From assembly GCF_000243135.2 (NCBI RefSeq), contig NC_019903.1, forward strand, positions 2,952,001-3,016,000: a DNA stretch of 64,000 nt, in the 5' to 3' direction. The stretch comes from Desulfitobacterium dichloroeliminans LMG P-21439. Its GTDB lineage: Bacteria > Bacillota > Desulfitobacteriia > Desulfitobacteriales > Desulfitobacteriaceae. The translations under genes were made by a program, and so were the position numbers. Positions 21,287 to 52,672 of this stretch are shown piece after piece (positions within the stretch are counted from its first letter, which is position 1; each line of letters starts with the position of its first letter). The notes under the pieces were generated by a model. That model saw only the letters and a list, made by a program, of their open reading frames with translations, ran no database searches and had not been told where the DNA came from.

Positions 21287-22162
21287 CTATAGTGACTGCC
21301 AAGGACTCTTCATTCTTTGACTTATTAGCACGTCTACCCCAGCTAGAGCTTTTTCGTTACTTAAATACCCAGCTAGAGTCTGTACCATGGGAACTTCACC
21401 CCAGAAATGACCCATATCGATGATGGATAATCCTGCCTCCAGGGCATCTAAAGCTTCATGATGATCCACATCGCCTGTAATCAGGAGATCCACCCCATTG
21501 AAGAGGGCCTTAGCAATGAAGCTACCGCCGCTGCCATTCACTATGGCTACTTTGCGTATCCGCCGCTGAGAGTCTCCCGCTAAACGTAAAACAGGCTTCC
21601 CTTCAAGGTTCGAGGGCGCAAGCTTCTTCAGCTCAACAGTCAGTAAGCTTGCTATGGCCTCCAAACTCACTGGCTCCTTGAGATATCCCATCACCCCATA
21701 ACCCCGAGTTGCACCCGTATTAAAGAGCGGAATCAAGTCATAAGCTGGCTCCTCGTATGGATGAGCCGCATCCGTAACTCGCAAATACTCCATCTTGTCC
21801 AGAGCCAAGGCCTTCCCCAAGCTCCAGCAGGAAGAGTATGTAGTTTGATCCAAATTGGTATGGGCGGCATAATAACCAATCCCAGCCTGAACAAGTTTTA
21901 GAGGCAAGTGTGCTCCTTGACTATCTGAGCGCAGGTTCTTAAGGGGCCGAAACATAATCGGATGATGCGCGACGATAAGCTGGGCATCCTTTTGTATGGC
22001 CTCTTCCAATATGCCCGGAGTAAGATCCAAGGTCACTAGAACTCTCTCGACAGAAGATGAAAAGCTTCCTACCAACAGACCGACATTATCCCACTCTTCA
22101 GCCCACGCCTTGGGGGCAATCTTTTCAATGGTTTGCGCAATTACACCGACCGAAACAGGCAT
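21287..22162 (-). CDS. Nif3/YqfO-like dinuclear metal centre protein
   Basis: A 291-residue protein of the NIF3 family (also annotated GTP cyclohydrolase 1 type 2 homolog). Metal-binding motifs are visible: IVAHHPIMF, AAHTNLD, ITGDVDHHEALDALEAGLSIIDMGHFWGE. The length is shorter than YqfO, since the inserted PII-like domain is abbreviated. Biochemical function is unsettled. Its start overlaps the end of trmK by 22 nt, the conserved trmK-nif3 arrangement of Firmicutes. Confidence 0.9.
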   Translation of the reverse strand: MPVSVGVIAQTIEKIAPKAWAEEWDNVGLLVGSFSSSVERVLVTLDLTPGILEEAIQKDAQLIVAHHPIMFRPLKNLRSDSQGAHLPLKLVQAGIGYYAAHTNLDQTTYSSCWSLGKALALDKMEYLRVTDAAHPYEEPAYDLIPLFNTGATRGYGVMGYLKEPVSLEAIASLLTVELKKLAPSNLEGKPVLRLAGDSQRRIRKVAIVNGSGGSFIAKALFNGVDLLITGDVDHHEALDALEAGLSIIDMGHFWGEVPMVQTLAGYLSNEKALAGVDVLISQRMKSPWQSL

Positions 22163-22956
22163 TTCTCCATCCCCTCCAACACCCTGATGCTCAGGTTATA
22201 CTCATCTATTCGCTTCTGCACTTTCGTTTGGGCTGATTTCTGCATCTCACCAATGGTTCTCTGTAGCGTTTGTTTTTGCTCATGAATCAGAACCTGCAGC
22301 TCTTCTTGAGGATTTTCGAGGCCCAGGGGGCCAAATTCCCAAATCCACTTCCTAATCAGACCTTCGGATAGTTCTTGATCTTGTTGACTCTCTGGAGAGG
22401 CCACGTCTATGAGAAGCTTCCCGAGCCACGTATGAACCTTTGTCTGCAATTCTTCCCATGTGTACCCTACACGACGGGAGAAATGCATGACCACGTAGAT
22501 ACGTCCTTCTTCTGCTACATAGCGTTCCTCTATCATCTTCCAGCCCTCTTGAAGTAAGGTTAAGCGGACTTTGCCTTCGGCGCCTTGGGGCTGCAGAATG
22601 AGGTCCTCAACCTGGGACATCACCAACCCTTGGGCAGCGAAAATTTCCAACATCGTGTTCCCACCCATCCCCGCTAAGGTCAGTGTATCCACTTCCCCCG
22701 GCTGAATCGGTGTTAAGCCATCTCCATAGCGGACATCGATAACCGAGGTTAAACCACGTCCTTTAATGGCGGCACAGGCCGAGCGATACGGTCCTTCGTG
22801 GACATCCACGGCGATAGCCTTCTCTATTCTTCCACTTTCCCACAGGTAGATGGGCAGATAGGCATGGTCTGTTCCAATATCGCCTAGCTGCGAACCCTTA
22901 GGCACAAAGGTTGCCACCATGTGTAGGCGTGGACCAATATTCACCGAAACTGTCAT
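22141..22956 (-). CDS. trmK: tRNA (adenine(22)-N1)-methyltransferase TrmK
   Basis: A 271-residue methyltransferase starting MTVSVNIGPRLHMVATFVP, with AAGGAGA upstream; a longer reading would add 21 residues without a ribosome site. SAM-binding motif is GSQLGDIGTDHAYLPIYL, followed by AIAVDVHEGPYRSA and TLTLAGMGGNTMLEIF. It methylates A22 of tRNA. The C-terminal coiled coil (QTLQRTIGEMQKSAQTKVQKR) is typical. It is coupled to the Nif3 gene and lies downstream of rpoD and the tRNA genes. Confidence 0.93.
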   Translation of the reverse strand: MTVSVNIGPRLHMVATFVPKGSQLGDIGTDHAYLPIYLWESGRIEKAIAVDVHEGPYRSACAAIKGRGLTSVIDVRYGDGLTPIQPGEVDTLTLAGMGGNTMLEIFAAQGLVMSQVEDLILQPQGAEGKVRLTLLQEGWKMIEERYVAEEGRIYVVMHFSRRVGYTWEELQTKVHTWLGKLLIDVASPESQQDQELSEGLIRKWIWEFGPLGLENPQEELQVLIHEQKQTLQRTIGEMQKSAQTKVQKRIDEYNLSIRVLEGMEKCLFRSV

Positions 22957-23041
22957 AAGAAATCTCCTTCCGACTCCTTTAACTATGGCATATGTCAAAA
23001 ATAGCGAGATGTTATACACATCTCGCTACATTCGTTCTAAA

Positions 23042-23416: not shown

Positions 23417-24538
23417 TTATTCTAGATAATCCTTGAGCTTTTTGCTCCGACTAGGATGGCGAAGTTTCCGCAGTGCTTTCGCTTCAATCTGACGAATCCG
23501 TTCGCGGGTCACCCCAAATTCTTGACCGACCTCTTCTAAGGTACGGGTGCGGCCATCATCTAAACCAAAGCGCAGACGTAATACCTTCTCCTCGCGAGGA
23601 GTAAGTGTTTCCAAGACTTCTTCCAGTTGCTCTTTTAGGAGGATGAAGGACGCCGCTTCAGAGGGCGCTGGCGCATCCTCATCGGGGATAAAGTCCCCTA
23701 AGTGAGAGTCTTCCTCTTCTCCAATCGGTGTCTCGAGGGATACAGGCTCTTGTGCAATCTTCATAATTTCCCGCACTCGCTCCACGGAGATATCCATTTG
23801 GGTGGCGATTTCCTCAGGGGTTGGTTCGCGACCTAATTCTTGGAGGAGTTGACGCGAGACACGGATGAGCTTATTAATGGTTTCTACCATATGCACTGGA
23901 ATCCGAATCGTGCGTGCTTGATCAGCGATCGCCCGGGTAATCGCTTGCCGAATCCACCAGGTAGCATAGGTAGAGAATTTGAAGCCTTTAACATAATCAA
24001 ACTTTTCTACCGCTTTAATCAGACCAAGATTACCCTCCTGGATTAAGTCTAGGAATAGCATCCCCCGGCCTACATAACGTTTGGCAATACTGACAACCAG
24101 ACGCAGATTAGCTTCTGCTAAACGGCGTTTGGCGCTCTCATCTCCTTGCTCCATCCGTTTGGCAAGTTCGATCTCTTCTTCAGCGGAAAGAAGGGGAACT
24201 CGGCCAATCTCCTTCAGGTACATACGGACTGGATCATCAATCCCCACACCTTCAGGAATAGAAAGGTCCACATCGACCTCTTCTTCTACTTCATCCTCAT
24301 CCACATCGTCATCTGCAATGGTATCATTGACCTTGACTAAGGCTTCGACTTCACCTGACTCATTGATGACGTCTATTCCCATCTTGCCAAGTTGTTCATA
24401 CACTTCGTCAATTTGATCGGCGGTGAGCTCAATTCCTTGGAGGGCATCCATGATCTCCCGGTAGGTTAAAGAACCCTTCTTCTTGCCTTGTAGAATCAGT
24501 TCCTTCACCGCATCGAGCTTCAATTGATTAACGCTCAT
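23417..24538 (-). CDS. rpoD: Primary sigma factor RpoD (SigA)
   Basis: A 373-residue housekeeping sigma factor. The start [15 protein letters not shown] has GGAGGGG 6 nt upstream. In-frame starts at 24580 (ATG) and 24598 (GTG) lie further up and have weak sites, so a longer form is possible but less likely. Region 1.1 is followed by an acidic segment ([17 protein letters not shown]), region 2 ([39 protein letters not shown]) and region 4 ([33 protein letters not shown]). It lies directly after dnaG, the conserved dnaG-rpoD pair. Confidence 0.98.
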
Positions 24539-24584
24539 GGATTCCCCTCCTTCCTGAGGCTCTTTCTTTTTTGTGCTCATGACC

Positions 24585-26429
24585 TTAGTTTTCGCCACTT
24601 CTCAACCGCTCTCCTATCTCTTTTAGCAGGGCAAAAGCGCCTGCCAAATCACCGGATTTTTCTAAGTCCACCATGCGAGCCTGAAGCTCTTCTACTGTTT
24701 CTTCCTCTTTTAGGGAATGAATCTGTTTCAGACAATCTTGAAAAAGTCGTTCCGGATGGGATAAATCTATCTCCTCAAGCATCAGCTCGGCAACTTTGCT
24801 TAACAAAGCATCAGAGTCCATGTGCGGTAGAGCTCCATTATCCAGTTTGGGTGCTTTTTCAATATGCGTATATATCTGTTGATGATAGGGTACTTTCCAA
24901 AATCCTGCTTCGAGATCTGCCTTAAATTTGGAGAGGGGAATCAGCTGCTCAAGCAAAAGACGCAAAAGAAACCGCTCTGCTCGATACACCCCATCAGAGA
25001 CTGACACTTCATCTGAAGATGGATTTGCACACCTATTGATATTATCCCTGTTTTTTACATAAATATCCTGTTTCTGCCTTAAATTTTCCTTGTCAGCCGT
25101 CTTTTTCGCAGTTTTTTGATCAAATCCGGCGATTTCCTCTTGGACTTTATCTAAGGTTAGACTAAGCTCCAGACTTAGAAACCGCTCGTACCCTTCCCGC
25201 TCGACCGGGCTCTGAACTTTCACGATATCGGGTGCTAGTTCTCGGACTAATTCCGCTTTCTCCGGAGCTGATCCGGGAGGGTTAGTTTTGATTAACACAT
25301 GGTATTTAAATTGAATATAAGGCTCTGCTTGGGCGAGAGCTTTATTAAATTCTTCTACTCCGAAGGTTTTCAAGTATTCATCCGGGTCCTTAGCTCCGCT
25401 TAGACTTAAGACATCTACGCGAAAGCCCATATCCCGCACTATTTCTCCGGCTCGTAGTGTTGCCTGAATTCCTGCCTGATCCGAATCGTAGACGATAACT
25501 ACTCGTCCTGTGTAGCGACGAATCAATTTAGCCTGGTCACGGGTTAAAGCTGTTCCTAAAGAAGCTACCGCGTTCTTGAAGCCTGCTTTTTGCAAGGCGA
25601 TAACATCCATGTAACCTTCTGCCAACAAAGCGAATCCTCGTTCGCGGATTCCTTGATGGGCTCGGTGCATACCATATAAATGATGTCCCTTGTTAAAAAA
25701 AGCAGTCTCAGGTGAGTTCAAATATTTGGGTGTTGAATTATCTAAAACTCGCCCGCCAAAACCGATGGTTCGTTGACGCGAGTCAAGAATCGCAAATATG
25801 ACCCGATTACGAAAACGATCATAAAATCCGCGGGACCTTCCTTCGGATGGTTCTCGTTCTAAAGCAAGCCCTGCCTGAACCACCTCTTGGGGGCTTACTC
25901 CTCGTGCGCTCAGCGCCTCAAGGAGGTCCTCCCAGCGTTCTGGAGCATAACCCAAACGAAATTGCTTGATGGTTTCATCATCTATCCCACGTTGCCGAAA
26001 ATACTGCCTACCTGGCTCTCCTTCGGGCTTATGCAGCAAGACTTCATGAAAATAACCCGTTGCCCAATCGTGAATCTCTTCCCAACGACGTCGACGGGTT
26101 TGCTGTTCCTTCTCTCGGGGCGAAAGTTCTTTTTCCGGAAGAATTATGCCGTGTTTTTCAGCTAGATTCTCTACCGTTTCAAGAAAACTCCAATTCTCTT
26201 TTCTCATTAAAAAGGAAAAAACATTACCACCTGTATGGCAACCAAAACAATAAAAGATCTGCTTTTCTGGGGTTACCGTAAAGCTCGGCGTTTTCTCCGC
26301 ATGAAAGGGACAGAGGCCTAAATAATTCTTCCCTTTGCGTTGAAGCCGTACATAATCGGAAATTGTATCGACGATGTCCGAATGCAATCTAACTTCTTCA
26401 ACGATTTCTTCAGGAATTCTATAATCCAC
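24585..26429 (-). CDS. dnaG: DNA primase
   Basis: A 614-residue DnaG that starts at GTG (26429). The zinc-binding domain is at residues 40-65 ([17 protein letters not shown] then [10 protein letters not shown]). The RNA polymerase core and TOPRIM follow ([31 protein letters not shown]). The C-terminal DnaB-interacting domain is about residues 450-610. It makes RNA primers for replication. It is upstream of rpoD with only 46 nt between. Confidence 0.97.
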
Positions 26430-28575: not shown

Positions 28576-29739
28576 CTAGCCTTTTGTAGTTGTTCCCAGA
28601 TTAAGCTTGCTCAAGCCCAAATTCAAAAGCAATGTTCCTAAGGAAACGATACCTAAAGACACACCAACTTCAAGCAAGGAAGGAATATAGGGACCGGTTG
28701 GCTCGCCAAGCATCTGCGGCCCGGGCAGGGTGATTAACGGATTGAACAATTGAGCCTGGAGTAGATTGGACTTGATGAGATAGATGGCTATCAGGGCGAT
28801 GACGGCACCGGTTGCCAGCCCTCCTGCTTTTGATGCAGAACCTTGGTTGGCCAGCAACACAATGGCCACAATCAAAGCCACGATCTCCGCCCAGAAGCCC
28901 AAAGCGCCTTCTCCAGATACGAGCCAAGTAAAGGAAGCATACTCTTCTCCACCGCCGGGATACAGCCCTATTAGCACATCTCCCACCACCACGATGAGTT
29001 CAATACACAACAGGATTGCAGCCACTTTCCCCATCTTGGCCAGTAAGTTCACTGGCATCGAGATGTATCCCTTTTTATTAAGAATTACAGCCATAATTAT
29101 TTGAATGGATAGGGCAGCGATCAGGGCTGCAATCAGGAAGGACAGGGGTTGCACGGGAGTATTCCATAAGGGACGGGCTATCTGGAAGGAGAATACAAAG
29201 GAAGTAACGGTAACGAGGATCCCCGCCACAAAGGCGATTACTGCTATGGTCTTAACGGATCCTTCAGCCTTCTTGCCCTCATTCACCAATATCAGCTGGC
29301 GAGTAAAAATAATTGAAATCACCATATAAGCAGCCAGCATAAGGAAATCCCAAAACATGGGTGAACTTAAATTACCACTGGTAATAAAGAGCCAGGCCCG
29401 TTCAGGGTTTCCTATATCCACGATAATAAACAGAGAAGCTGCTACGACGCTGGATACCGCCCCTAAATAGGCGGCAATCCGGGTGTAGGGTTTAAACTCA
29501 TTCTGCTTAAACAGGTAAGGTAAGGCAGCCAGAAGCAAGCTCCCTGCCGCAACTCCGGTGAAAATTGTAAAGCCTACAATATAAAGTCCCCACATATTAT
29601 TAGTACCTAAATTGGTCAACTGCAAGCCTTTGCTAAGCTGCATTCCCCAGCAAACTCCACCCAGAGCAGTCAATAAAACAAACAAGATATTCCATCCACT
29701 TACGGAGCTGGTTTTCTTTGTATTTGTTACAACAGCCAT
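28576..29739 (-). CDS. NrfD/PsrC-like membrane anchor subunit
   Basis: A 387-residue integral membrane protein with about ten helices, belonging to the NrfD/PsrC/DmsC-like menaquinol-binding family. Examples of helices are NMWGLYIVGFTIFTGVAAGSLLL and NLSSPMFWDFLMLAAYMVISI. It should pass electrons from menaquinol to the FeS subunit encoded 12 nt upstream. Together with the molybdopterin subunit it forms a three-part complex iron-sulfur molybdoenzyme. AAAGAGGTG precedes the start. Confidence 0.88.
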   Translation of the reverse strand: MAVVTNTKKTSSVSGWNILFVLLTALGGVCWGMQLSKGLQLTNLGTNNMWGLYIVGFTIFTGVAAGSLLLAALPYLFKQNEFKPYTRIAAYLGAVSSVVAASLFIIVDIGNPERAWLFITSGNLSSPMFWDFLMLAAYMVISIIFTRQLILVNEGKKAEGSVKTIAVIAFVAGILVTVTSFVFSFQIARPLWNTPVQPLSFLIAALIAALSIQIIMAVILNKKGYISMPVNLLAKMGKVAAILLCIELIVVVGDVLIGLYPGGGEEYASFTWLVSGEGALGFWAEIVALIVAIVLLANQGSASKAGGLATGAVIALIAIYLIKSNLLQAQLFNPLITLPGPQMLGEPTGPYIPSLLEVGVSLGIVSLGTLLLNLGLSKLNLGTTTKG

Positions 29740-29751
29740 CTTTACACCTCT

Positions 29752-30375
29752 TTAAGTTAAATAATAGACCGAAGGCTTGGTTCCCTTCTCTTCGAGCAGT
29801 TGAAAATGACTACGGCCGCTAATCGCCTTGCTCACATCGCTGTTGGGATCATCAATATCTCCAAAAATACGAGCACGATTGGGGCAGGTATCTATACAGG
29901 CCGGCTTCTGCCCCTGAGCTAGGCGGTGACTGCAGAATGTACATTTTTCCACCGTATTGTACTGATGAGGGGTGACTGTAGCATCACCCATGGCTACCTC
30001 GATGGCATATTCGGGTTTTTTCCAATTAAACTGACGAACAGCGCTGTATGGACAGGCTACCATACAATACCGACAGCCGATGCATTTATCGTAGTCTTGT
30101 ATCACGATACCATCTTCCTCACGTCGATAGGTTGCTCCTATAGGGCAAGCCTTCACGCAAGCAGGATTCTCACAATGCTGACAATTCAAAGGGAGAAATT
30201 CCATTTGCAAATTAGGAAATTTTCCTTTCGGGGTATCCATCGATTCCCCACCCACGGTCAAAATCCGATTCCACCAAATGTCGTTGGCTAAGTTGTTTTC
30301 CACCTTGCATGCTACCGCACATGCGTGACAACCGGTGCAGCGGTCTAGATCTATCGCCATTGCATAACGCATCAT
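29752..30375 (-). CDS. Four-cluster [4Fe-4S] electron transfer subunit (DmsB/NrfC-like)
   Basis: A 207-residue ferredoxin-like subunit with four cysteine clusters: CTGCHACAVACK, CQHCENPACVKACP, CIGCRYCMVACP and CTFCSHRLAQGQKPACIDTCP. This is the DmsB/PsrB/NrfC pattern, carrying electrons between the NrfD-like anchor and the molybdopterin subunit. No Tat signal is present; it is probably carried out with the catalytic subunit. Its start is 13 nt after the catalytic gene stop. AAAGGGGG precedes the start. Confidence 0.94.
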   Translation of the reverse strand: MMRYAMAIDLDRCTGCHACAVACKVENNLANDIWWNRILTVGGESMDTPKGKFPNLQMEFLPLNCQHCENPACVKACPIGATYRREEDGIVIQDYDKCIGCRYCMVACPYSAVRQFNWKKPEYAIEVAMGDATVTPHQYNTVEKCTFCSHRLAQGQKPACIDTCPNRARIFGDIDDPNSDVSKAISGRSHFQLLEEKGTKPSVYYLT

Positions 30376-30387
30376 TCTATACCCCCT

Positions 30388-32853
30388 TTATCTCTTTTTT
30401 ACATCAACCAAGCAATCAAAATAAGCAAAATTTACGGCCATAGGGTCCGAAGTAGCATTGGTTAATTCCTGGAAACAGCCCTCGATGAACTGCTCACGCT
30501 GCCAACCCTTCGGAATGCTAATCACACCGGTACTTATGGAATCATTGACTTCGGCTTTCACCACGGCCTTTCCTCGGTCATTAAATACCTCTACGATATC
30601 ACCGGTCTTGATTCCCCGTATCTCTGCATCTTCGCGGCTGATTTTGACGAGGGGTTCCGGATCCAATTCACGCAACAAGGGTACATTGTACCACTGGGTA
30701 TGGGTACGATACTTTGCGTGCTCCTGAATAAACACCAAGGGATATTTGGCGAACAAGGGGTTATCTCTCCAAGCCTCACCGGGAGGTTTGAAATAAGGCA
30801 ATCGTTCTTTCTCGATGATTCCTGTTAGATCTTGCCCATAATTGACTCTAGGTAGAGGATTCTCACAGTAGAGTTGAGCTCTTCCTGTAGGGGTGTAGAA
30901 GAAAGCTTCACCTCGAACAAAGGGATTTTCCGCACTTCCTGTTCCCCGAACGACCTTTTCCTCCATAAGTCGATCATAGGTAATACCCATTTTGCGTAGA
31001 TCATCAGAATCCAATAAGACTTTGATCCAGTCTGTGTCATCCATATCTTTAGGGAAGTATTGTCCCAGTCCCATCTTGTGAGCAATCATAGCGATGATTT
31101 CTGCGTCAGGCTTGCTTTCATACAAAGGCTCAATGGCTTTTTCTTGCATGTAGATATAGGGGTTATTATAGGCGGTACGAAGGTCATTGACTTCAAACCA
31201 GAAGGAAGCAGGTAAGACGATATCCGCATAACGTGCTGTATCTGTAAGTTCTGTATCGACCACCACATTGAATTCTAGGTTGGGCAAAATATCGGTGAAC
31301 CAAGTGTTTTGTTGCGCCCAGTTGCTCATGGAATTGGATGAGGTAGTGTACATCGCTTTAATGGGATAGGGTTTTCCTTCTAAGGCTTGATCTCTCACGG
31401 CCTTGTAAAACTCTGTTTGAGGAAGTGTGGTTCCATCAGCCATTTTGCCGTTGGTCACATACATACCCACGTAATTAAAGGGGATATTCTGAACAAATAA
31501 ACCCGTGAATCCTGCACCCTTGACTCCAATATTCCCAGTAAGGGAGGCCATCATGAAGGCTGCAGCAGACCATAGGTGGCCGTTTTGGTAGTGGTCGATT
31601 CCATAGTTGGTGTAAATCATGGTGGGTCCAGAGACATAGGCTTTGACCAAATCCTTGATCTTCTCTACCGGAATCTTGGTATAGTCACTGGCTTTCTCTA
31701 AGGTGTACTCCTGAACATGGTTCTTCAGCAGGGTAAAGACGGTCTCCACCTTAACACCCTGAATGGTGTAGGCTCCTTCGATGGCTACATCTTGAGGACC
31801 TTCTTTTAGGAGAGCCGGACTGTTGGCGGCACTATCCCAGACATAGTAGTCATCTTCTTCAGCTGGGATATCGGAAACAAAATCACTCTTGCGTAGAACT
31901 TTTCCATTATCCTTGCGCACCAGGAAAGGCGCCGTGCTTCTCTTCTTTACGAAATCAACATCGATTAGGTCCTCATCCATAATATATTTGATCATAGCGA
32001 GCGCCAGCATGAGGTCCGAGCCGGGAACGATGGGGATGTATTCATCGGATTTATTGGCTGTTGCCGAATAGATGGGGTCGATGGTAATAACCTTCGTCCC
32101 GTTTTTCTGAGCTTCTTTGAGGATACGCCAGTTCTGGGGTTGTGAATAGACGGGGTTAGATCCCCAGATAATAATTGTTTTTGCATCCATCATGGTACGA
32201 GGTTCATTTCCCCACAGCCAAACACTCCCACCAATAACTCGGTCAGCGCCATACCCTGTGGCTTGGTCATAACAAACATTGAGTTTTGTACAGCCAATGG
32301 AATTAGTCAATCGATTGAAAATTCCCAGACATCCATGGACTAAACCATAGTTACCTGAACCGATATCAAAGGCTAGGGATTTGGGGCCATACTTTGCTTG
32401 AATATCCATAAACTTCTCAGAAATCTCAGTAATGGCCTCATCCCAGGAGATGACTTCCCATTTGTCTTCTCCTCGTTCACCCACACGGCGCAGGGGGTGT
32501 TTGATACGCGTAGGACTATAGGTGCGTTGAACAAGGGACAAACCTTTCAAGCAGCATCCTGTGTATTCCCCATCAGGCCAAGGAGCCGGTGTAGTTTTGA
32601 CTAATTTACCATCTCGGACATGGGCATTCAGCCGACAGCTCTGGAAGCAGTTAGAACGGCAGGCACTGGACACCAATTTCTCTTCGCTAACAAGGGCAGG
32701 GCTTTCACTGGCCGTAACGAGTGCCTTCATACCCGGACCCCAAGGATTTGCCGCAATAGCTCCCGTAGCCGCCGCAGTCACTGCCGAAGCCTTTAAAAAG
32801 GTACGGCGTGAAAGTTTTGATTGCAGTGCACCTTTTTGCTCTTCCTTTTCCAA
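30388..32853 (-). CDS. Molybdopterin oxidoreductase catalytic subunit (internal-start form)
   Basis: From an internal TTG (32853) this is an 821-residue DMSO reductase-family catalytic subunit. GAGGAGGT lies 7 nt before that TTG. The product then begins with a normal Tat signal, KLSRRTFLKASAVTAAATGAIAA. An N-terminal FeS site follows (CRSNCFQSC ... GCCLKG), then the bis-MGD-binding domains (IIIWGSNPVYSQPQNW, VVDTELTDTARYADIVLPASFWFE) and the C-terminal molydopterin-dinucleotide domain (HAKYRTHTQWYNVP). The Mo ligand may be the Asp in NVCYDQATGYG, as in type II enzymes, but this is uncertain. Substrate is unknown. The same frame continues upstream to 33303 without a stop. Confidence 0.85.
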   Translation of the reverse strand: MEKEEQKGALQSKLSRRTFLKASAVTAAATGAIAANPWGPGMKALVTASESPALVSEEKLVSSACRSNCFQSCRLNAHVRDGKLVKTTPAPWPDGEYTGCCLKGLSLVQRTYSPTRIKHPLRRVGERGEDKWEVISWDEAITEISEKFMDIQAKYGPKSLAFDIGSGNYGLVHGCLGIFNRLTNSIGCTKLNVCYDQATGYGADRVIGGSVWLWGNEPRTMMDAKTIIIWGSNPVYSQPQNWRILKEAQKNGTKVITIDPIYSATANKSDEYIPIVPGSDLMLALAMIKYIMDEDLIDVDFVKKRSTAPFLVRKDNGKVLRKSDFVSDIPAEEDDYYVWDSAANSPALLKEGPQDVAIEGAYTIQGVKVETVFTLLKNHVQEYTLEKASDYTKIPVEKIKDLVKAYVSGPTMIYTNYGIDHYQNGHLWSAAAFMMASLTGNIGVKGAGFTGLFVQNIPFNYVGMYVTNGKMADGTTLPQTEFYKAVRDQALEGKPYPIKAMYTTSSNSMSNWAQQNTWFTDILPNLEFNVVVDTELTDTARYADIVLPASFWFEVNDLRTAYNNPYIYMQEKAIEPLYESKPDAEIIAMIAHKMGLGQYFPKDMDDTDWIKVLLDSDDLRKMGITYDRLMEEKVVRGTGSAENPFVRGEAFFYTPTGRAQLYCENPLPRVNYGQDLTGIIEKERLPYFKPPGEAWRDNPLFAKYPLVFIQEHAKYRTHTQWYNVPLLRELDPEPLVKISREDAEIRGIKTGDIVEVFNDRGKAVVKAEVNDSISTGVISIPKGWQREQFIEGCFQELTNATSDPMAVNFAYFDCLVDVKKR

Positions 32854-33303
32854 TTCAGTTACCTCCTCTTTGATGAGAGTGATCCACTGTTTTTGATTTT
32901 CCAATAACCGAGCCACAGCATCGTTGAGCTTTTTATCCCGAAGCACTTTAATCAAAGCAGGAAATAGTTCCTCATCTGCCTCTTCTTTGATCACCACCGC
33001 GCTTGCCCCTGCCGTCATCAACTCGTAGCGGTAACCTTCATTGCTTGTGGAAACCAGCGCAAGGATGGACAGTCCTGGGTTTTTCTGCTTGCTCTCAGCG
33101 AAGATGTCCCGATAATACTGGGTGTAGGAAAAGACGTCCACGATAACCAGAACCATCCTGTCTTCCCCATCGCTAACGGCCTGATTGAGCTCTGCCATAC
33201 TTTCCACGCAGTGGCATTTAACCCGGGCAGCTTCAAAGATTCTAGCAACCACTTGGCGTAACCAAAGATGGGGGATTGCCACAATACAACTCAATTTTTC
33301 CAA
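30388..33303 (-). CDS. Receiver-like domain fused in frame to molybdopterin oxidoreductase (long form)
   Basis: The uninterrupted frame starts at TTG (33303) with AAAGGAG 10 nt upstream and gives 971 residues. The first 150 form a receiver-like domain: VLVIVDVFSY with Asp56 at the phosphorylation position, LALVSTSN, and Lys106 in AVVIKEEAD. The acidic pair usual at strand 1 is absent (VAIPHL), so the domain is degenerate. A helix (LIKEEVTELEKEEQ) runs into the Tat motif SRRTFLK at about 165. In the long form the Tat signal would be internal and probably unusable. So either two proteins are made from one frame, or the upstream domain is a relic. Confidence 0.6.
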   Translation of the reverse strand: MEKLSCIVAIPHLWLRQVVARIFEAARVKCHCVESMAELNQAVSDGEDRMVLVIVDVFSYTQYYRDIFAESKQKNPGLSILALVSTSNEGYRYELMTAGASAVVIKEEADEELFPALIKVLRDKKLNDAVARLLENQKQWITLIKEEVTELEKEEQKGALQSKLSRRTFLKASAVTAAATGAIAANPWGPGMKALVTASESPALVSEEKLVSSACRSNCFQSCRLNAHVRDGKLVKTTPAPWPDGEYTGCCLKGLSLVQRTYSPTRIKHPLRRVGERGEDKWEVISWDEAITEISEKFMDIQAKYGPKSLAFDIGSGNYGLVHGCLGIFNRLTNSIGCTKLNVCYDQATGYGADRVIGGSVWLWGNEPRTMMDAKTIIIWGSNPVYSQPQNWRILKEAQKNGTKVITIDPIYSATANKSDEYIPIVPGSDLMLALAMIKYIMDEDLIDVDFVKKRSTAPFLVRKDNGKVLRKSDFVSDIPAEEDDYYVWDSAANSPALLKEGPQDVAIEGAYTIQGVKVETVFTLLKNHVQEYTLEKASDYTKIPVEKIKDLVKAYVSGPTMIYTNYGIDHYQNGHLWSAAAFMMASLTGNIGVKGAGFTGLFVQNIPFNYVGMYVTNGKMADGTTLPQTEFYKAVRDQALEGKPYPIKAMYTTSSNSMSNWAQQNTWFTDILPNLEFNVVVDTELTDTARYADIVLPASFWFEVNDLRTAYNNPYIYMQEKAIEPLYESKPDAEIIAMIAHKMGLGQYFPKDMDDTDWIKVLLDSDDLRKMGITYDRLMEEKVVRGTGSAENPFVRGEAFFYTPTGRAQLYCENPLPRVNYGQDLTGIIEKERLPYFKPPGEAWRDNPLFAKYPLVFIQEHAKYRTHTQWYNVPLLRELDPEPLVKISREDAEIRGIKTGDIVEVFNDRGKAVVKAEVNDSISTGVISIPKGWQREQFIEGCFQELTNATSDPMAVNFAYFDCLVDVKKR
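32854..32870 (-). promoter_or_regulatory. Internal ribosome-binding site
   Basis: AAGAGGAGGT followed by AACTGAA and TTG (32853) is a near-perfect ribosome site at ideal spacing inside the open frame, 14 codons before the twin arginines of the Tat signal. Confidence 0.75.
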
Positions 33304-33426
33304 TCAAAAACAGCTCCTTTGTGCGACTATGCACAACTTAATTTTCATTCTAGCCTATCCCTTAACCTTTATCTGTAGGGATAAAACCTTGATTATTCTC
33401 TCGAGGTAACAGTAAGAAAAAGGACA

Positions 33427-33441
33427 GTTGTGTCCGTAAAA
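33427..33441 (+). promoter_or_regulatory. Candidate operator shared with 35011-35025
   Basis: GTTGTGTCCGTAAAA lies about 125 nt before the start of the molybdopterin gene. A 14/15 match occurs on the opposite strand at 35011-35025, upstream of the kinase gene. Both flank the NarXL-like pair, suggesting regulator binding (inference). Confidence 0.45.
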
Positions 33442-33448
33442 ATTCCCC

Positions 33449-34096
33449 TTATCCTAAAAGCTTATATCGAATAGCATAATCTACCAGATCAGACCGGTGC
33501 TCCAGTTTCAGCTTGACGGTAATTCGTTCCCGATAGGTCTCGATAGTGCGAGGGGATAAAAAGAGCTTTTCCCCAATTTCTCTGCTGGTAAAGCCTCGGG
33601 CTAAAAATTGCAGCACCTGAAGCTCCCTGTCCGATAAGATATCCGGCGTTACCTCGGATACACTTTCTGTGCTACAGTATTGGTTGGCCATCACTTGTAC
33701 TCCGGTAGCACTCAAGAACACATCTCCCTTTACGACCGTGTGTATGGCTTTAATGAGCTCTCGATCTGCAGCTGATTTATGAACATACCCTCTACCGCCG
33801 GCATTGAGAAATCTAAGGAGGTATTCATCCTCCACATGCATGGTCACCGCAATAACTCGTGTCTCGGGCAATGCGGTCAAGATCTTACCCGTTGCCTCTA
33901 CCCCATCACAATCAGGCAAGCTGATATCCATCAACACGACGTCCGGCTTTTTATGCTTCACCCCTTCAAGACACTCACAACCGCTAGCTGCCTCGCCCAC
34001 CACTTCCATATCTTCTTGCCCTTCCAGTAGCATCGTTAAGGCATTCCGCAGCAGGGTGTGATCATCTGTAAGAAAAACACGGATTTTACGGTTCAT
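33449..34096 (-). CDS. NarL/FixJ-type response regulator
   Basis: A 215-residue regulator. The receiver has acidic residues Asp11-Asp12 (FLTDDHTLL), the phosphoacceptor Asp57 (VVLMDISLPDCDG), and the conserved Thr and Lys (VIAVTMHVED, GYVHKSA). A linker leads to a LuxR/NarL helix-turn-helix at about 150-210: DRELQVLQFLARGFTSREIGEKLFLSPRTIETYRERI. Its start overlaps the end of the kinase gene by 11 nt. It lies directly upstream of the molybdopterin operon and probably controls it. Confidence 0.95.
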   Translation of the reverse strand: MNRKIRVFLTDDHTLLRNALTMLLEGQEDMEVVGEAASGCECLEGVKHKKPDVVLMDISLPDCDGVEATGKILTALPETRVIAVTMHVEDEYLLRFLNAGGRGYVHKSAADRELIKAIHTVVKGDVFLSATGVQVMANQYCSTESVSEVTPDILSDRELQVLQFLARGFTSREIGEKLFLSPRTIETYRERITVKLKLEHRSDLVDYAIRYKLLG

Positions 34097-34829
34097 TCAT
34101 TTCTCCCCCTTCATCCTTCAAGGGTAATGTAATCGTGATTTCCGTTCCTTGCCCAAGTCTACTCTTTATCTTAAAATCTCCACCAGCTAACCTCACGCGT
34201 TCTTCCATACCTAAGAGACCAAGACCTCTTTTTAGGTCTCCACACGACATTCCTTTCCCATTATCCCCTATGTAAAGTTCGAGACCATGCTCACAAAAAT
34301 TAACCCTTATGGTAATAAGAGATGCCTCTGCATGACGGGCGACATTGGTCAGGCTTTCCTGTACAGCACGGTATACCACAGTTTCCACTTCACTTGGAAG
34401 ACGTTTCTTTAGCCTTGGACTTACCAAAGTAACCTTTATTCCCGAGTAGCGGCGATAATCCTCAATATACCATTCTAGTGCAGAAATCAATCCCAAGTTC
34501 TCTAACACAGTAGGGCGTAGATTCATAGCCAAACGTCTTACATCTTCGATGGTCTGCTGGGTAAGGTAGCGGAGTCCCCCTAAGCGATCATGGATCACTT
34601 CCACATTCTCTTCATGTTGCAACATCTTTAATTGGAGCAAAATCGAGGTCATGGCTTGTCCGAGTTCATCATGAAGTTCTCTTGATAGTCGCTTCTTGCT
34701 GTTTTCCAACTCATCAATGGCTTGCTTACAGATTCGCTCCAACGTCATTTCTCGCTGCTGCAATCGTTGTATCTCTGCTTGAGCATTCAGATTATCGGCT
34801 ATAAGCTTTAAAACCATTTGTTCATCCAT
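34086..34829 (-). CDS. Soluble NarX-like histidine kinase without sensor domain
   Basis: A 247-residue kinase of the HisKA_3 class. A short coiled coil leads to the phosphorylated His53 in RLSRELHDELGQAMTSILLQLKML. The ATPase domain has SLTNVARHAEASLITIRVN (N box), YIGDNGKGM (G1) and RGLGLLGMEERVRLAGG (G2). There is no membrane segment and no recognisable input domain, so a partner probably supplies the signal. The polyferredoxin encoded upstream is a candidate partner (inference). AGGTG precedes the start. Confidence 0.93.
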   Translation of the reverse strand: MDEQMVLKLIADNLNAQAEIQRLQQREMTLERICKQAIDELENSKKRLSRELHDELGQAMTSILLQLKMLQHEENVEVIHDRLGGLRYLTQQTIEDVRRLAMNLRPTVLENLGLISALEWYIEDYRRYSGIKVTLVSPRLKKRLPSEVETVVYRAVQESLTNVARHAEASLITIRVNFCEHGLELYIGDNGKGMSCGDLKRGLGLLGMEERVRLAGGDFKIKSRLGQGTEITITLPLKDEGGEMNEP

Positions 34830-35158: not shown

Positions 35159-36328
35159 CTATTTTTTTCCACCATGAATTAATCTACTTCCAAATAAATT
35201 TTTACGAACATCTGCCAGCAAATCCTCTTCAGATGGTTCTTCCTTACACCAGTAACATAGATTATCCTTACTGGTAATGGTTTCTGCCCCACACACTTTG
35301 CACTCCCCCACCTGAGCCTTAAATATGGGCTTTTCCTCGTAGGGTTCCGTATCGGGAAGCCGATCACGGAGGATGGACTTGGTGGGACAGGATAACATAC
35401 AGATGCGACAATCCAAACATCGTCCACTGACAAATGAATGGATGCATTGCTGATCTTCCACTGTAATCTTTAAGGCTTGAGTAGGACAGTAACGTCCACA
35501 CATTCCACAGTTCACACATTGTGTGCTCATTTGAATGGAAGGCCAATAAGCAGGACTTCCCCCACCCTGATTGTTCATAGAATAACTTTCTTCTAGACGC
35601 CTTTGCCAATTCGGCAAGATATTGATTCGTTCATTTTTCTTCGTCTCGACGGATTCTTGCGAAGCTTTTCTTTGCTTCTTAAGCTCACTCTCTTCTTTGC
35701 GCCCCATTAAGGACAAGAAAAGATCCCGACGGGAAGTGACTTTTAAACCTGAAGAAATTGCTTGAAGCTTTTTCTTTTTCTTAGCTTTTTCTGCTTTGTA
35801 GACTAGAGAAAAATCCGGGGTGTGACCAGAAGCGGTCAACCATTCCATGGCTGTCTCTACTGCTAGGTTCAGCCTGTCCAAACAGGACTTCATGGGGCAA
35901 TCCTGACATTCATCCAAGCGTAGCTCCACCCCTGTCATCAGGCCTAGATCATACCACATTCCCCTGGATAAACTGCTTAAGCAAGTAGGGACTTGGACTG
36001 CCCCCTTTTCCTTATCTTCTTTGCACAGATAAGGACTGGAATGATACCCGCAAAAGAACTGAGTCACTTCAGCATCCTGTTCCTCCACTGCAGCACGAAT
36101 GGTGGTTTCATCCCATTGGGTAGAGCTAAAAACCTCAGTTGGGCAATCAGCAAAGCAGAGCCCGCACCCGAAGCACTGATCCTGAATTAAATAGATCTGA
36201 TGATCTGATAAAATTAAAGCTTGTCCCGGACAATGGGAAACACAATGGTTACATTCCACACCATTGTGTTGCTGATTCAAACACCGATTTGTGTCAATTT
36301 GCACATATCTAGCTTTATTGAATAACAT
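35159..36328 (-). CDS. Polyferredoxin with central Cys-rich region and zinc ribbon
   Basis: A 389-residue cytoplasmic protein. Two [4Fe-4S] motifs lie at the N-terminus (CNHCVSHCP, CFGCGLCFADCP). A central region has further cysteines (FFCGYHSSPYLC, VPTC, CQDCPMKSC). A charged linker (residues 180-250) leads to two more clusters (CVNCGMCGRYCP, CLDCRICMLSCP) and a zinc-ribbon-like CKVCGAE...CYWCKEE end. It resembles NapF/NapG-like accessory ferredoxins but is larger. It lies between the TorD-like chaperone and the kinase. A role in cofactor loading or redox sensing is possible. Confidence 0.8.
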   Translation of the reverse strand: MLFNKARYVQIDTNRCLNQQHNGVECNHCVSHCPGQALILSDHQIYLIQDQCFGCGLCFADCPTEVFSSTQWDETTIRAAVEEQDAEVTQFFCGYHSSPYLCKEDKEKGAVQVPTCLSSLSRGMWYDLGLMTGVELRLDECQDCPMKSCLDRLNLAVETAMEWLTASGHTPDFSLVYKAEKAKKKKKLQAISSGLKVTSRRDLFLSLMGRKEESELKKQRKASQESVETKKNERINILPNWQRRLEESYSMNNQGGGSPAYWPSIQMSTQCVNCGMCGRYCPTQALKITVEDQQCIHSFVSGRCLDCRICMLSCPTKSILRDRLPDTEPYEEKPIFKAQVGECKVCGAETITSKDNLCYWCKEEPSEEDLLADVRKNLFGSRLIHGGKK

Positions 36329-36428: not shown

Positions 36429-37115
36429 TTACACTAGTATTGGGGCTAGGCCTATTTTCGCTAATAAGGCAATGGCCTGGTAAGATTGGCATTTTGCTTC
36501 GTTTTCAAGGCGTTCAAAAAAGCTCGGACACCACTTTTTTAAATGCAGCGTCTCAAATTGCTGGATTTGCTTTTCCATTTTCTCGATTTCTTCTAAGTTC
36601 TGTTCTTGCATGGCCTTACCCTTTTTTCCATGAAGATACAGCATAAACTCCAACTCGGTAGCTAAATGATCTGCCGGTTCTGCTGATTGGTTGACCAAAA
36701 TCACCCCGGCATCCTTGTAGCAGCGTTCAGCATCCAGGGCTGCAGGACTCATAAAAAGCATAGCCCCTTGCTTATCAGCAGGATCATGGAGATATAAGGT
36801 CTCATAAATATTTAATGCTGGCTTTTTGGGATCGTCAAAAAGTCGTGTATACTCTCGCCTCATCTTAATCAAAAAGGGCGTCGATTCCGATTTTGGCCCT
36901 ACTAACCGTCCGAATGCTTCCCCAACTCGTGCTCTATCCTCTTGGCTACAGGAAAGCTCCTCTAGGATATTGAGGCTGTCCTGCCGGTAGCTTCCATTAA
37001 GGAGAGCCTCCGCAAGCTCATGGGTGGGCAGTCGCAAGGAAAGGGATAATAGCTGATATAAGTCTGATATTGCAAAGGATTTCGCCACCTTATTTTCTAA
37101 AACGTTGTTGTTCAT
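36429..37115 (-). CDS. TorD/DmsD-like molybdoenzyme chaperone
   Basis: A 228-residue all-helical protein of the TorD family. The conserved loop with DHLATELEFMLYL is seen near residue 150, and an N-terminal SDLYQLLSLSLRLPTHELAEALL helix. Such chaperones bind the Tat signal of molybdoenzymes and guard cofactor insertion. It is the first gene of the locus reading to the molybdopterin subunit at 32853, which carries a Tat signal, so that protein is the likely client. Confidence 0.85.
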   Translation of the reverse strand: MNNNVLENKVAKSFAISDLYQLLSLSLRLPTHELAEALLNGSYRQDSLNILEELSCSQEDRARVGEAFGRLVGPKSESTPFLIKMRREYTRLFDDPKKPALNIYETLYLHDPADKQGAMLFMSPAALDAERCYKDAGVILVNQSAEPADHLATELEFMLYLHGKKGKAMQEQNLEEIEKMEKQIQQFETLHLKKWCPSFFERLENEAKCQSYQAIALLAKIGLAPILV

Positions 37116-37463: not shown

Positions 37464-37877
37464 CTACTTGGACCCCGTACAGCCGGAACAAGTCCTCAAC
37501 ATTTCACAAGAACTACATAGCTCACTCTTATCACTGGCAATCGGGCAGTAGCTCCCCTCGATCTTCCAACACGGCTTGGATTCATTAACGATTGTCGAGC
37601 TATTCTTCAATGCTCCACCTTTACAATTACGATTATACCAACAGGAATACATAGCCGTTATTTGGTTTACACCCGCGATGTTTAATCCCTTTTCATCCAT
37701 TAAAAATTTAATGAACTTCAGGCGTAACAAATCGTTGTTGGAATATTTCCTTTGATATTTCGCCCGATCCGGATGAATTAAGTTGTTTCTTTCCCAGACC
37801 CTTAGGGTTTCTGGATGTTCTCCAATTAACTCTGCCACCGTTCCAATGCTATAAAGTCCTTTTTCTTCGTCCAGCAT
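37464..37877 (-). CDS. MerR-family regulator with Cys-rich C-terminus
   Basis: A 137-residue regulator starting at ATG 37877, or one codon earlier at GTG. The MerR helix-turn-helix is seen in YSIGTVAELIGEHPETLRVWERNNLIHP with the wing RKYSNNDLLRLKFIKFL. The C-terminal third carries eight or so cysteines, including CSSCEMLRTCSGC, and may bind a metal or an FeS cluster. It lies between nrfA and the TorD-like gene on the same strand, so it may control either respiratory locus. Confidence 0.88.
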   Translation of the reverse strand: MLDEEKGLYSIGTVAELIGEHPETLRVWERNNLIHPDRAKYQRKYSNNDLLRLKFIKFLMDEKGLNIAGVNQITAMYSCWYNRNCKGGALKNSSTIVNESKPCWKIEGSYCPIASDKSELCSSCEMLRTCSGCTGSK

Positions 37878-38062
37878 CACTCACCACGCTTATCCATTTT
37901 TTCTCTAGAGATACTGTCTTAGCTATCTATTCCGGCTCACAAACTGATTTTATACCTTTTCCTCAATAATCTCAATATTACTATATAAGTTTCTTTTTAT
38001 ATAAAGTTTACCTAATCTAAACAGTGGTTTAGGACTTATTCAACGGATTTGGCACGGATATG

Positions 38063-38091
38063 AAAAAACAGAGGAAGACACCTCTGTTTTT
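38063..38091. terminator. Terminator after nrfA
   Basis: AAAAAACAGAGG and CCTCTGTTTTT form an 11-bp stem with T- and A-runs on both sides, about 60 nt after the nrfA stop (minus strand). Confidence 0.85.
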
Positions 38092-38150
38092 CAATAACTA
38101 TTGAGTTTTCCTTCAGATAACATTAACTTACGATTAGTAAAACTGGTCGA

Positions 38151-39485
38151 TTAACTTTTTTTCGACATTTGCTTGACCGTTTCGCTGTTGGTCTTGGGAG
38201 CGTTCACTTCAAATTGTGGGGTAGCCACTCCCGTTCTGGCTTCAGTCGCCTTATTGATTGCTTGGTAAGCATAATCTAAAGATTTACTTAAGCTATCAAA
38301 GGTCAGCTGAGGATTATGGAAGCCCATGGAGTTCTCTGCTCCAACCCAATCAACATAGAATTGAGCCTTGCGCTGGAGAGCACGCGCTTCTTCAAGAAGT
38401 GCTTTATTAGCTCCTTCAGCATCTGCCGCCGCGATGGCTTCGATTGCCTCGACATTCACATTCCCTACCGTAGCCATCGTATCCGCAACTTTATCTTGAG
38501 TATAGAATACCCGCTCTTTTAACCATTCTTCGCCTTCCCGATGGCAGGTCATACAGCTTTCATTCATTGTCTTAAGCGGACTGGTCCACCAGTGTGAAGA
38601 AATCTTTTCGCCACCATTCATGCTATAAGGCATATGACAATCTGCGCAAGATAAACCGGCCTCTGCATGGGTACTACCCGAAAATGTTTCAAATTCAGGG
38701 TGTTGCACCTTAATTTCAGGCGTTCCTGCTTTTGCATGCTTCCAATCCGAGAAACCTTTCTCTTCATAATAAGCGAGAATATCATCCGGAGTGGTGCCTT
38801 TATCCCATGGGAAAGTGACCACTTTCTTATCCCCAGCGAAATAATATTCCACATGGCATTGAGCGCAGGTCAACGTCCGTAGCTCTTGAGTCGTCAACTT
38901 ATCAGGATCTTTACCCAAACGAGTGAGTGTATCGCGTAAAGGGGGTTGGGTAATAACTAACTTCATGGTTTGGGGATCATGACAATTAGCACAGGTTATG
39001 CCTTCCGTAACTTTACTCTTGAGGTCATGGAAATTAGCGCCATAATAATCATCGCCCATCTCTTCCACTATACCCTCTATATTGGCTGATTTACAGGTCC
39101 AGCAGGAAGCGATACTTTTTTCATTAATACGTTTAATTTTCGATACATCTTCAAGGGTGTAGTTATGTCCCCTATCTTCATTATATTCGATAGCAAATCC
39201 ATAACCGGCAAATATTTCTTTTAAGAAGGGCCATTGGACCAACTTATCGAATTCCTCAGAACCGCCATATTTACTGCCTTCGTTGGACATTTCTGAAGTT
39301 TTCATGAATGTGTCATATTGCTTAGGATAATATTTGGCATATTCGTCTACGGATAGGGTTCCGGGTGCGATTTCCGCACGGTAAGAAACGGCCTGCTGGC
39401 TACCCGATGAGGCGCAGCCAACTGCAACTAAACTGACGGCTAAGATGACCATCAAGCTAAGGAGTATTATTCCACGTTTTCTCAC
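38151..39485 (-). CDS. nrfA: Cytochrome c nitrite reductase NrfA
   Basis: A 444-residue pentaheme enzyme reducing nitrite to ammonium. GTG (39485) is the start, with GGTAGGT upstream. The signal ends in a lipobox-like VAVGCASS, so the protein is probably a membrane-anchored lipoprotein. The catalytic heme site is CWTCK; the four others are CANCH, CAQCH, CADCH and CMTCH. The length fits Gram-positive NrfA. It receives electrons from NrfH, encoded 26 nt upstream. Confidence 0.97.
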   Translation of the reverse strand: MRKRGIILLSLMVILAVSLVAVGCASSGSQQAVSYRAEIAPGTLSVDEYAKYYPKQYDTFMKTSEMSNEGSKYGGSEEFDKLVQWPFLKEIFAGYGFAIEYNEDRGHNYTLEDVSKIKRINEKSIASCWTCKSANIEGIVEEMGDDYYGANFHDLKSKVTEGITCANCHDPQTMKLVITQPPLRDTLTRLGKDPDKLTTQELRTLTCAQCHVEYYFAGDKKVVTFPWDKGTTPDDILAYYEEKGFSDWKHAKAGTPEIKVQHPEFETFSGSTHAEAGLSCADCHMPYSMNGGEKISSHWWTSPLKTMNESCMTCHREGEEWLKERVFYTQDKVADTMATVGNVNVEAIEAIAAADAEGANKALLEEARALQRKAQFYVDWVGAENSMGFHNPQLTFDSLSKSLDYAYQAINKATEARTGVATPQFEVNAPKTNSETVKQMSKKS

Positions 39486-39510
39486 AATCTTTACCTACCT
39501 TTCCTTTCCC

Positions 39511-39999
39511 TTAACGATAATTACTATGTGGAGTATAGCGGTGACAATCAAAACATTGTCGACTAGGATCCATGCTTATATTTCTTACCACATCTTGATG
39601 ACATTTTAAGCAGTTATTCTGAACCATTTCGTTGTTTTTCTCGTTCATTCGAATGCTGTCAGGAACATCACTAAAGGTATTGTGATAAAGATGTTGAACT
39701 CCTGAGGTAATTTTGGTATACGTCTTTGTCGCATAGTTGGTTTGATCGGTATGACAATCGTTACAACCGACTATTTCCCTGTGTGATGAATGGCTCCACG
39801 TTCCATAAACAGGCTCCATAACATGACAAGAGACACAATAACTAGGATCCTTTGTAAGCGCGTGTACTCCTTGAACACCTATAACTGCTGTGAGACACAA
39901 TACTGCCAAAAGACCAATAACTAATGTTTTCCTAGATGTTTTTTTGGGTTTGCCACCTTGAGTATCGGTTTTTTCATGTTCCGCCCCGCTATATTTCAT
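39511..39999 (-). CDS. nrfH: Cytochrome c nitrite reductase small subunit NrfH
   Basis: A 162-residue tetraheme NapC/NirT-type quinol dehydrogenase. ATG at 39999 is chosen because of the G-rich site AAAGGGGGGG 6 nt upstream; the longer reading covers that site. A single N-terminal membrane helix (TLVIGLLAVLCLTAVIGVQGV) is followed by four CxxCH motifs: CVSCH, CNDCH, CLKCH and CFDCH. It passes electrons from menaquinol to NrfA. Confidence 0.96.
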   Translation of the reverse strand: MKYSGAEHEKTDTQGGKPKKTSRKTLVIGLLAVLCLTAVIGVQGVHALTKDPSYCVSCHVMEPVYGTWSHSSHREIVGCNDCHTDQTNYATKTYTKITSGVQHLYHNTFSDVPDSIRMNEKNNEMVQNNCLKCHQDVVRNISMDPSRQCFDCHRYTPHSNYR

Positions 40000-40213
40000 G
40001 ATTCCCCCCCTTTCTTTCATGATTTAGCTTGAGACCCTTTTCTCCCTCCTTACCCATCCATATTAAATTATAGAAAAAAAAGGCTCTTAAGCCCATTATC
40101 AAAATCATGCTAAATAATTAACAAATCCTTAAGGAAGCTGTTGGCCTTGTGTAGCAATACAAACTTAGCCTAAAGAATGACTTACTACACAGATCAGAAG
40201 AAATAACAAAGGA

Positions 40214-51780: not shown

Positions 51781-51781
51781 C

Positions 51782-52672
51782 TTATTCGACCTCCTTTCCA
51801 GACTGACCCTTGAGTAAGGGGAAGCCCAGCTTTTCTCTCTGCTCAACATAGGCATGAGCACAAAGTCGAGCTAAGTTGCGCACACGAGCAATATAGCCTG
51901 TCCGTTCAGTGACGCTGATCGCCCCGCGAGCATCGAGAAGGTTAAAGGTATGAGAACACTTCAGAACATAATCATAAGCAGGAAGCACTAGGCCTTTTTC
52001 AACAGTGCGGATTGCTTCCTTCTCGTACATATCAAACCATACCTGTAGAGCTTCTACATCGGCCGCTTCGAAATTGTAATGGGAATAATCGATTTCGTTT
52101 TGCAGATAGATATCACCATAAGTAATATCGCCTACATATTCAATGTCGAAGACACTCTCTTTGTTTTGAATATACATAGCTAGGCGTTCTAAACCATAGG
52201 TGATCTCAGAGCAAACGGGTTTACAGTCAATCCCACCACATTGTTGGAAGTAGGTGAACTGGGTGACTTCCATGCCATCCAGCCAGACCTCCCAACCCAA
52301 ACCCCAAGCCCCTAAGGTTGGCGATTCCCAGTTATCTTCAACAAAGCGAATATCATGCTCTTTCGGGTTAATTCCCAACCGCTCTAAGCTTTGCAAATAA
52401 AGCTCTTGGATATTGTTCGGGGAAGGCTTAATGATGACTTGATATTGGAAATAATGTTGCAAACGGTTAGGATTCTCCCCATAGCGTCCATCGGTGGGAC
52501 GACGGGAAGGTTCGATATAAGCGACTTTCCAAGGCTCGGGGCCTAAGGCTTTTAAAAAAGTATTGGGGTTAAAGGTCCCTGCCCCTTTTTCTATATCATA
52601 GGGCTGGGCAATGATGCAGCCTTGCTCCCCCCAAAATTGATTCAGGGAAAGGATCATGTCCTGAAATTTCAT
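51782..52672 (-). CDS. glyQ: Glycyl-tRNA synthetase alpha subunit
   Basis: A 296-residue class II catalytic subunit: [55 protein letters not shown] and [24 protein letters not shown]. Its stop is 1 nt from the glyS start. The leader contains a T-box and a sigma-A consensus promoter, so it responds to uncharged tRNA-Gly. Confidence 0.98.

Follow-up and report, generated by a model that had tools for sequence, protein, structure and literature searches.

A NarL-type pseudo-receiver encoded in frame with a Tat-exported molybdoenzyme, and a conserved internal start that most likely gives the gene two products

The stretch analysed here (64,000 nt, hereafter the window) belongs to the Desulfitobacterium dichloroeliminans LMG P-21439 genome, a single contig of 3.62 Mb. 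On its reverse strand, a 971-codon frame devoid of stops (33303..30388) joins a receiver-like N-terminal domain (N-domain) in frame to a catalytic subunit of the DMSO reductase family. The frame starts at TTG 33303, behind the Shine-Dalgarno (SD) AAAGGAG (33314..33320, reverse strand), which is kept in related loci, and its 971-aa product (30388..33303) would comprise a NarL-type pseudo-receiver (residues 1-125; 32929..33303), a linker helix, a Tat signal and the catalytic subunit. A second in-frame TTG at 32853 would give an exported catalytic subunit of 821 aa (30388..32853), the predicted short product. The catalytic part matches PF00384, PF01568 and PF04879, as well as the Tat signal model (TAT_signal, PF10518), above the Pfam cut-offs, and its Mo-bisMGD domains, Fe4S4 domain and twin-arginine signal are those of a Tat-exported member of the DMSO reductase family. 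Its nearest solved structure is perchlorate reductase PcrA, and its invariant Asp346 aligns with an Asp of PcrA, presumably the Mo ligand of that enzyme. The first-pass annotation, made from the letters alone, had proposed a receiver-like domain in frame with a Tat molybdoenzyme and a Tat signal at about residue 165; the open 971-aa frame, the receiver homology and the Pfam matches bear this out, the motif being SRRTFLK at residues 165-171 (32791..32811, reverse strand), with an invariant Arg-Arg.

The neighbouring genes lie on the same strand. Downstream are found a four-cluster Fe-S electron-transfer subunit (29752..30375) and an NrfD/PsrC-type membrane subunit (28576..29739), while a maturation chaperone of the NarJ/TorD type, which accompanies these operons conservedly, is encoded at 36429..37115. 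As had been noted, a NarXL-like pair adjoins the fusion: immediately upstream are a NarL-like response regulator (receiver and GerE domains, 33449..34096) and a soluble NarX-like kinase (HisKA_3 and HATPase_c, 34086..34829). The kinases of the fused loci carry HisKA_3 with either a GAF or no sensor domain and no matched membrane domain, so that a cytoplasmic input is likely. The GAF region is gone in the kinases of the window and of its genus-mate G001; it is present in the Desulfosporosinus orthologue and in most family members, and the enzyme therefore need not be the input. Two other observations concern the surroundings. A 389-aa multi-4Fe-4S protein (35159-36328) is encoded beside the chaperone gene and is conserved in most of these operons as well as in the unfused locus L018 (see below), which suggests, from its genomic context, a dedicated maturation or electron-transfer role. 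Further on (37464-40020), genes for NrfA (cytochrome c552 nitrite reductase) and an NapC/NrfH-type cytochrome adjoin that of a MerR-type regulator, whose Cys-rich tail is unusual.

The fusion was found at 13 loci in 12 genomes of Bacillota. These are the window, three of its genus-mates (one of them with two copies), three genomes of Desulfosporosinus, two from a different genus of the same order, a pair of MAG contigs and G114, which lies outside the window's class. Within a phylum sample of 398 genomes, the fusion was found only in G000, G002, G003, G030 and G114; genomes were taken one per species, and the counts and E-values of related genes given here are not independent observations. Homologues broken between the two parts, which the first-pass annotation regarded as evidence against its reading, were absent: none of the 13 loci has a stop or frameshift between the receiver and enzyme parts, even though some of the receivers are just 20-37% identical and indels occur before the internal start, the frame being nonetheless kept. 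Purifying selection acts on the N-domain (dN about 0.2-0.3, dS above 1 or saturated), which evolves at up to about three times the rate of the catalytic part. A chance open frame is ruled out by the 13 homologous loci and the purifying selection. No paper describing the fusion was found in a literature search over open-licence full texts.

Taken alone, the N-domain of the window matches the Pfam receiver model weakly, with 18.7-19 bits under a curated cut-off of 30.2. As for the profile of the nine-member N-domain family, its next-best matches are NarL-type regulators (E down to 3e-12), and Response_reg is matched by eight of the nine members (best E 2.8e-9). Below the fused genes, the profile search returned ordinary regulators and a few longer frames (E >= 3e-12), and no stand-alone N-domain relative was seen in it. 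An alignment of the domain with the receiver of the adjoining NarL-like protein extends over 120 columns, and the AlphaFold2 model of the domain (pLDDT 82), which finds receiver matches in the PDB, shows a (beta/alpha)5 receiver followed by a long helix. Concerning the active site, the acidic pair is missing in every member covering it: TDDH of the neighbouring NarL becomes AIPH in the window, and AISH, VVSH or AVPN in others. Of the key residues listed from the window sequence, Asp56 is invariant across the fusion members and the loss of the acidic pair is general; Lys106, also listed as present, is retained in most members and missing in some. A pseudo-receiver has been defined as a receiver in which one or more of five residues of the active site (DD, D, T/S, K) are missing (PMC12632262), and by this definition the N-domain, judged on its sequence and its predicted fold, is a pseudo-receiver. 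No GerE match, the sign of a GerE/LuxR-type DNA-binding output, was found in the fusion, which differs in this from a NarL/FixJ regulator; its output part is the molybdoenzyme.

The internal start stands out by its ribosome-binding site. The SD AAAGAGGAGGT (32861..32871, reverse strand) precedes the in-frame TTG 32853 with a dG to the anti-SD of -11.8, vs. -8.4 at TTG 33303, and this strong site, to which attention had already been drawn, proved to be conserved in all 13 loci: each has an in-frame start with a dG <= -11 located 13-21 codons upstream of the Arg-Arg motif, the start codon itself being TTG, ATG or GTG depending on the gene. In nearly all of the 13 loci, the internal SD is better than that of the long start. 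Such a combination of SD and start is present at the internal site in 10/10 distinct fused genes and in none of the 137 other 40-codon windows of the same genes. In a control made of the 23 other ORFs of the window, three of 235 40-codon windows qualified, all at codons 21-28; these are probably the true starts of over-long ORFs, because of this position and of the strong SDs before ATG. The ORFs in question, 22141-23019, 23417-24598 and 49708-51861, were probably called too long, with strong SDs before an ATG at codons 22, 21 and 28, respectively.

The possibility that the internal SD is a by-product of the amino-acid sequence was considered and rejected: under a synonymous-codon null, in which each gene was recoded with its own codon usage, p was jointly small, although the genes are related and the values per gene, from 0.005 to only 0.11, leave this a weak point of the two-product reading. 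Among close orthologues, the dN of the linker around the internal start is equal to or higher than that of the flanks, and its dS is far below that of both flanks in most pairs. Synonymous identity reaches 0.77-0.78 there vs. 0.48 overall, and the strongest synonymous-constraint window of the gene, equalled by 18 of 5000 column permutations, is the one around this start; in the window, the block with suppressed synonymous change extends approximately from 32830 to 32922 (reverse strand). L018, whose catalytic part is 75% identical and which has no N-domain, starts with an ATG at the aligned site, preceded by AAAGAGGAGG, and other unfused relatives likewise start shortly upstream of the Tat motif. 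An in-frame start and SD conserved beyond coding demands, the mark of conserved alternative internal initiation, are thus both found, and on this comparative ground the internal site looks like a real, selected start site. The search for an internal promoter of the short form returned a single sigma-70-like match, weak and no better than chance (33140-33112, inside the N-domain), and the predicted accessibility of the internal site, taken as a sign of structured control, was unremarkable.

Upstream of the long start, the 33304-33448 interval between the regulator gene and the fusion carries a TAGAAT box (33352-33347); relatives have a conserved GACA element about 21 nt upstream of this box, at the place of which CCTACA is found in the window. 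The interval also holds a dyad, GGACACAACTGTCC (33435-33422), which is a candidate NarL-family site and also has a terminator-like score, and a palindrome, TTGTGC-N6-GCACAA (33319..33336, reverse strand), right before the SD of the long form. The stability of the hairpin preceding the long start is not unusual when compared with shuffled sequences. The -10-like element and the dyad are conserved in the nearest relatives and are consistent with a single transcript spanning both starts. The long start and its SD are conserved too.

This last observation speaks for a different reading, according to which only the long form matters: a precursor inserted N-inside would be exported by the Tat system, leaving the receiver in the cytoplasm, either tethered or freed with the cleaved signal, and the internal SD would be incidental. 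Such a topology is permitted, as Tat signal peptides insert N-inside/C-outside (PMC13186574). A folded cytoplasmic domain before the signal is therefore topologically allowed, and the earlier statement that a Tat signal so far inside should not work is not established; since this signal is intact, the long form may itself be exported; exported or retained, it would have its pseudo-receiver in the cytoplasm. That the internal start was kept in 13 of 13 loci despite start-codon changes, with an SD better than the upstream one in nearly all of them and at the very place of the strongest synonymous constraint, nevertheless makes an incidental internal SD unlikely. Less plausible still is a role of the N-domain as a mere translated leader, in which ribosome passage would set initiation at 32853 by translational coupling and the long polypeptide would have no job. 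A long intragenic leader ahead of a strong internal SD, with a choice of starts that could be regulated, would suit such coupling, but the domain shows purifying selection at the protein level (dN about 0.2-0.3, dS above 1), the receiver fold and Asp56 are retained at 20-37% identity, and the frame is maintained through indels; we consider this reading very improbable. Taken together, the conserved internal start, the synonymous constraint and the L018 start indicate that one gene most likely makes two products.

The fusion is closely associated with the two-component genes. Of the fused loci, 12 have visible upstream DNA, and in each of these a NarL-type regulator comes directly before the fusion (for the second G003 operon, the regulator gene is at L056:14996-15628); a NarX-like kinase is upstream in the same loci except L017, where the contig ends. 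Conversely, none of the 12 unfused relatives has a two-component pair of that family upstream, and the association of fused vs. unfused copies with the pair gives a Fisher p of 7e-7, uncorrected for kinship. Six of the 12 unfused copies have a divergent CRP/FNR-type gene beside them; L018 is one of the six, and paralogues from genomes with fused copies are also among them. L062, L081, L082, L083 and L018 are among the loci beside such divergent genes, and some of them share a genome with fused copies. With unfused, CRP/FNR-linked copies and fused copies, nature thus allows two modes of regulation to be compared within a single enzyme family.

The most telling case is G114, in which the signalling and enzyme parts separate sharply. 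The kinase, regulator and N-domain of this genome fall with their G030 counterparts, with identities of 63, 68 and 50%, respectively, and branch supports of 100/99 or better, whereas its catalytic part is 75% identical to that of the window vs. 38% to that of G030. The catalytic data reject a G030+G114 grouping (p-AU 3.5e-44), while the placement of G114 with the window's group minus G030 is rejected by the N-domain (p 1e-4), the kinase (4e-8) and the regulator (0.0016). Along the G114 ORF, the affinity switches in the neighbourhood of the internal start, at some point from about residue 135 to about residue 165. L018, for its part, has neither the N-domain nor the two-component pair. Together, G114 and L018 imply at least two events in which the domain and the two-component genes shifted jointly with respect to the enzyme. 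Judged from these gene histories, the N-domain behaves as part of a signalling module encoded inside an enzyme gene, and the link between regulation and enzyme, which had been read from adjacency, is strengthened far beyond it by the co-occurrence with two-component genes and the co-inheritance in G114.

Two further explanations may be weighed against these histories. The gene could make two products with the pseudo-receiver acting as a proofreading or retention device, delaying Tat export until the cofactors are loaded, and not in transcription. The domain does stand directly before the Tat signal, to which a long helix connects it, and such enzymes need proofreading; yet these operons already come with a NarJ/TorD chaperone gene, the inheritance of the domain follows that of the kinase and regulator instead of that of the enzyme, and the domain is missing wherever the two-component pair is missing, all of which renders this role rather improbable. 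The view least in favour, to which we give next to no credence, is that of a decaying relic, a former response regulator run into the enzyme gene and being lost. The degeneracy of the domain relative to NarL receivers and the use of the short start as the usual one in unfused relatives would agree with decay, but not so the purifying selection, the saturation of synonymous sites between copies that are all in frame, or the retention of the arrangement after the enzyme swap.

The co-occurrence and co-inheritance with the two-component genes indicate that, in function, the receiver is a part of the two-component system, and we are moderately in favour of a reading in which the dual start is combined with a pseudo-receiver acting with the NarX/NarL pair, the enzyme feeding back on its own operon. 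A single mRNA, begun upstream of the long start, would be translated from two sites: start 33303 would yield the 971-aa protein bearing the NarL-type pseudo-receiver, and start 32853, with its better ribosome site, an ordinary Tat-exported catalytic subunit. Rather than accepting phosphate, the pseudo-receiver would bind the kinase or the regulator of the soluble NarX/NarL pair; the long form could thereby inform either of them of the amount of enzyme, its cofactor loading or the substrate, and the amount or state of the enzyme would feed back on its own operon. We infer from the comparisons above the production of both proteins, the location of the long form and the direction of signalling. 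The initial proposal of two products is well supported by comparison; as for its cytoplasmic long form, this may be a sensor or regulator acting on the kinase. It is conceivable, although we hold it with less than even confidence, that the enzyme copy joined to the pseudo-receiver is cytoplasmic and serves as its own sensor of substrate or maturation, the choice of start setting the ratio of sensor to enzyme. With two products, the gene would clearly exemplify how the choice of start can provide a single respiratory enzyme with two differently targeted forms, and the annotation of either start alone conceals half of the gene.

Several known systems share part of this organisation. CheA-long and CheA-short, among other proteins with conserved internal starts, come from one gene with two in-frame starts, the short product being without the N-terminal signalling domain. 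The present gene would resemble them on both counts, except that here the second start also decides whether the protein begins with an export signal. The enzyme part is like the type II members PcrA and EbdA of the DMSO reductase family (PDB 4ydd, 2ivf) in its domains, Tat signal and electron-transfer partner subunit, and differs from them by the N-terminal pseudo-receiver, the dual start and the NrfD-type anchor. With CmrT of the CmrRST system of Clostridioides difficile, a pseudo-receiver proposed to bind the kinase or regulator (PMC12632262), it has in common that a pseudo-receiver protein is encoded alongside an otherwise normal kinase/regulator pair; unlike in CmrT, an atypical response regulator, the DNA-binding output is replaced here by a respiratory enzyme. 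Among 20 described atypical regulators, the only non-orphans are CmrT and FrzS, and the switching of pseudo-receivers was called a mystery in a 2025 review (PMC12632262); here, the pseudo-receiver is accompanied by a kinase, a regulator and a defined enzyme, in a module naturally swapped between enzymes, which makes the switching question directly testable. Finally, in the HoxBC regulatory hydrogenase of Ralstonia eutropha, an intracellular enzyme informs the kinase HoxJ (PMC6978683). The metalloenzyme acts there through a histidine kinase by which the operons of its exported or energy-conserving relatives are controlled. A soluble kinase is encoded with the enzyme here too, and a putative cytoplasmic enzyme form, linked to this kinase by the genetic association described above, would bind it. 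HoxBC is, however, a separate gene pair, whereas the candidate sensor would here come from the enzyme gene itself, as an alternative product fused to a pseudo-receiver.
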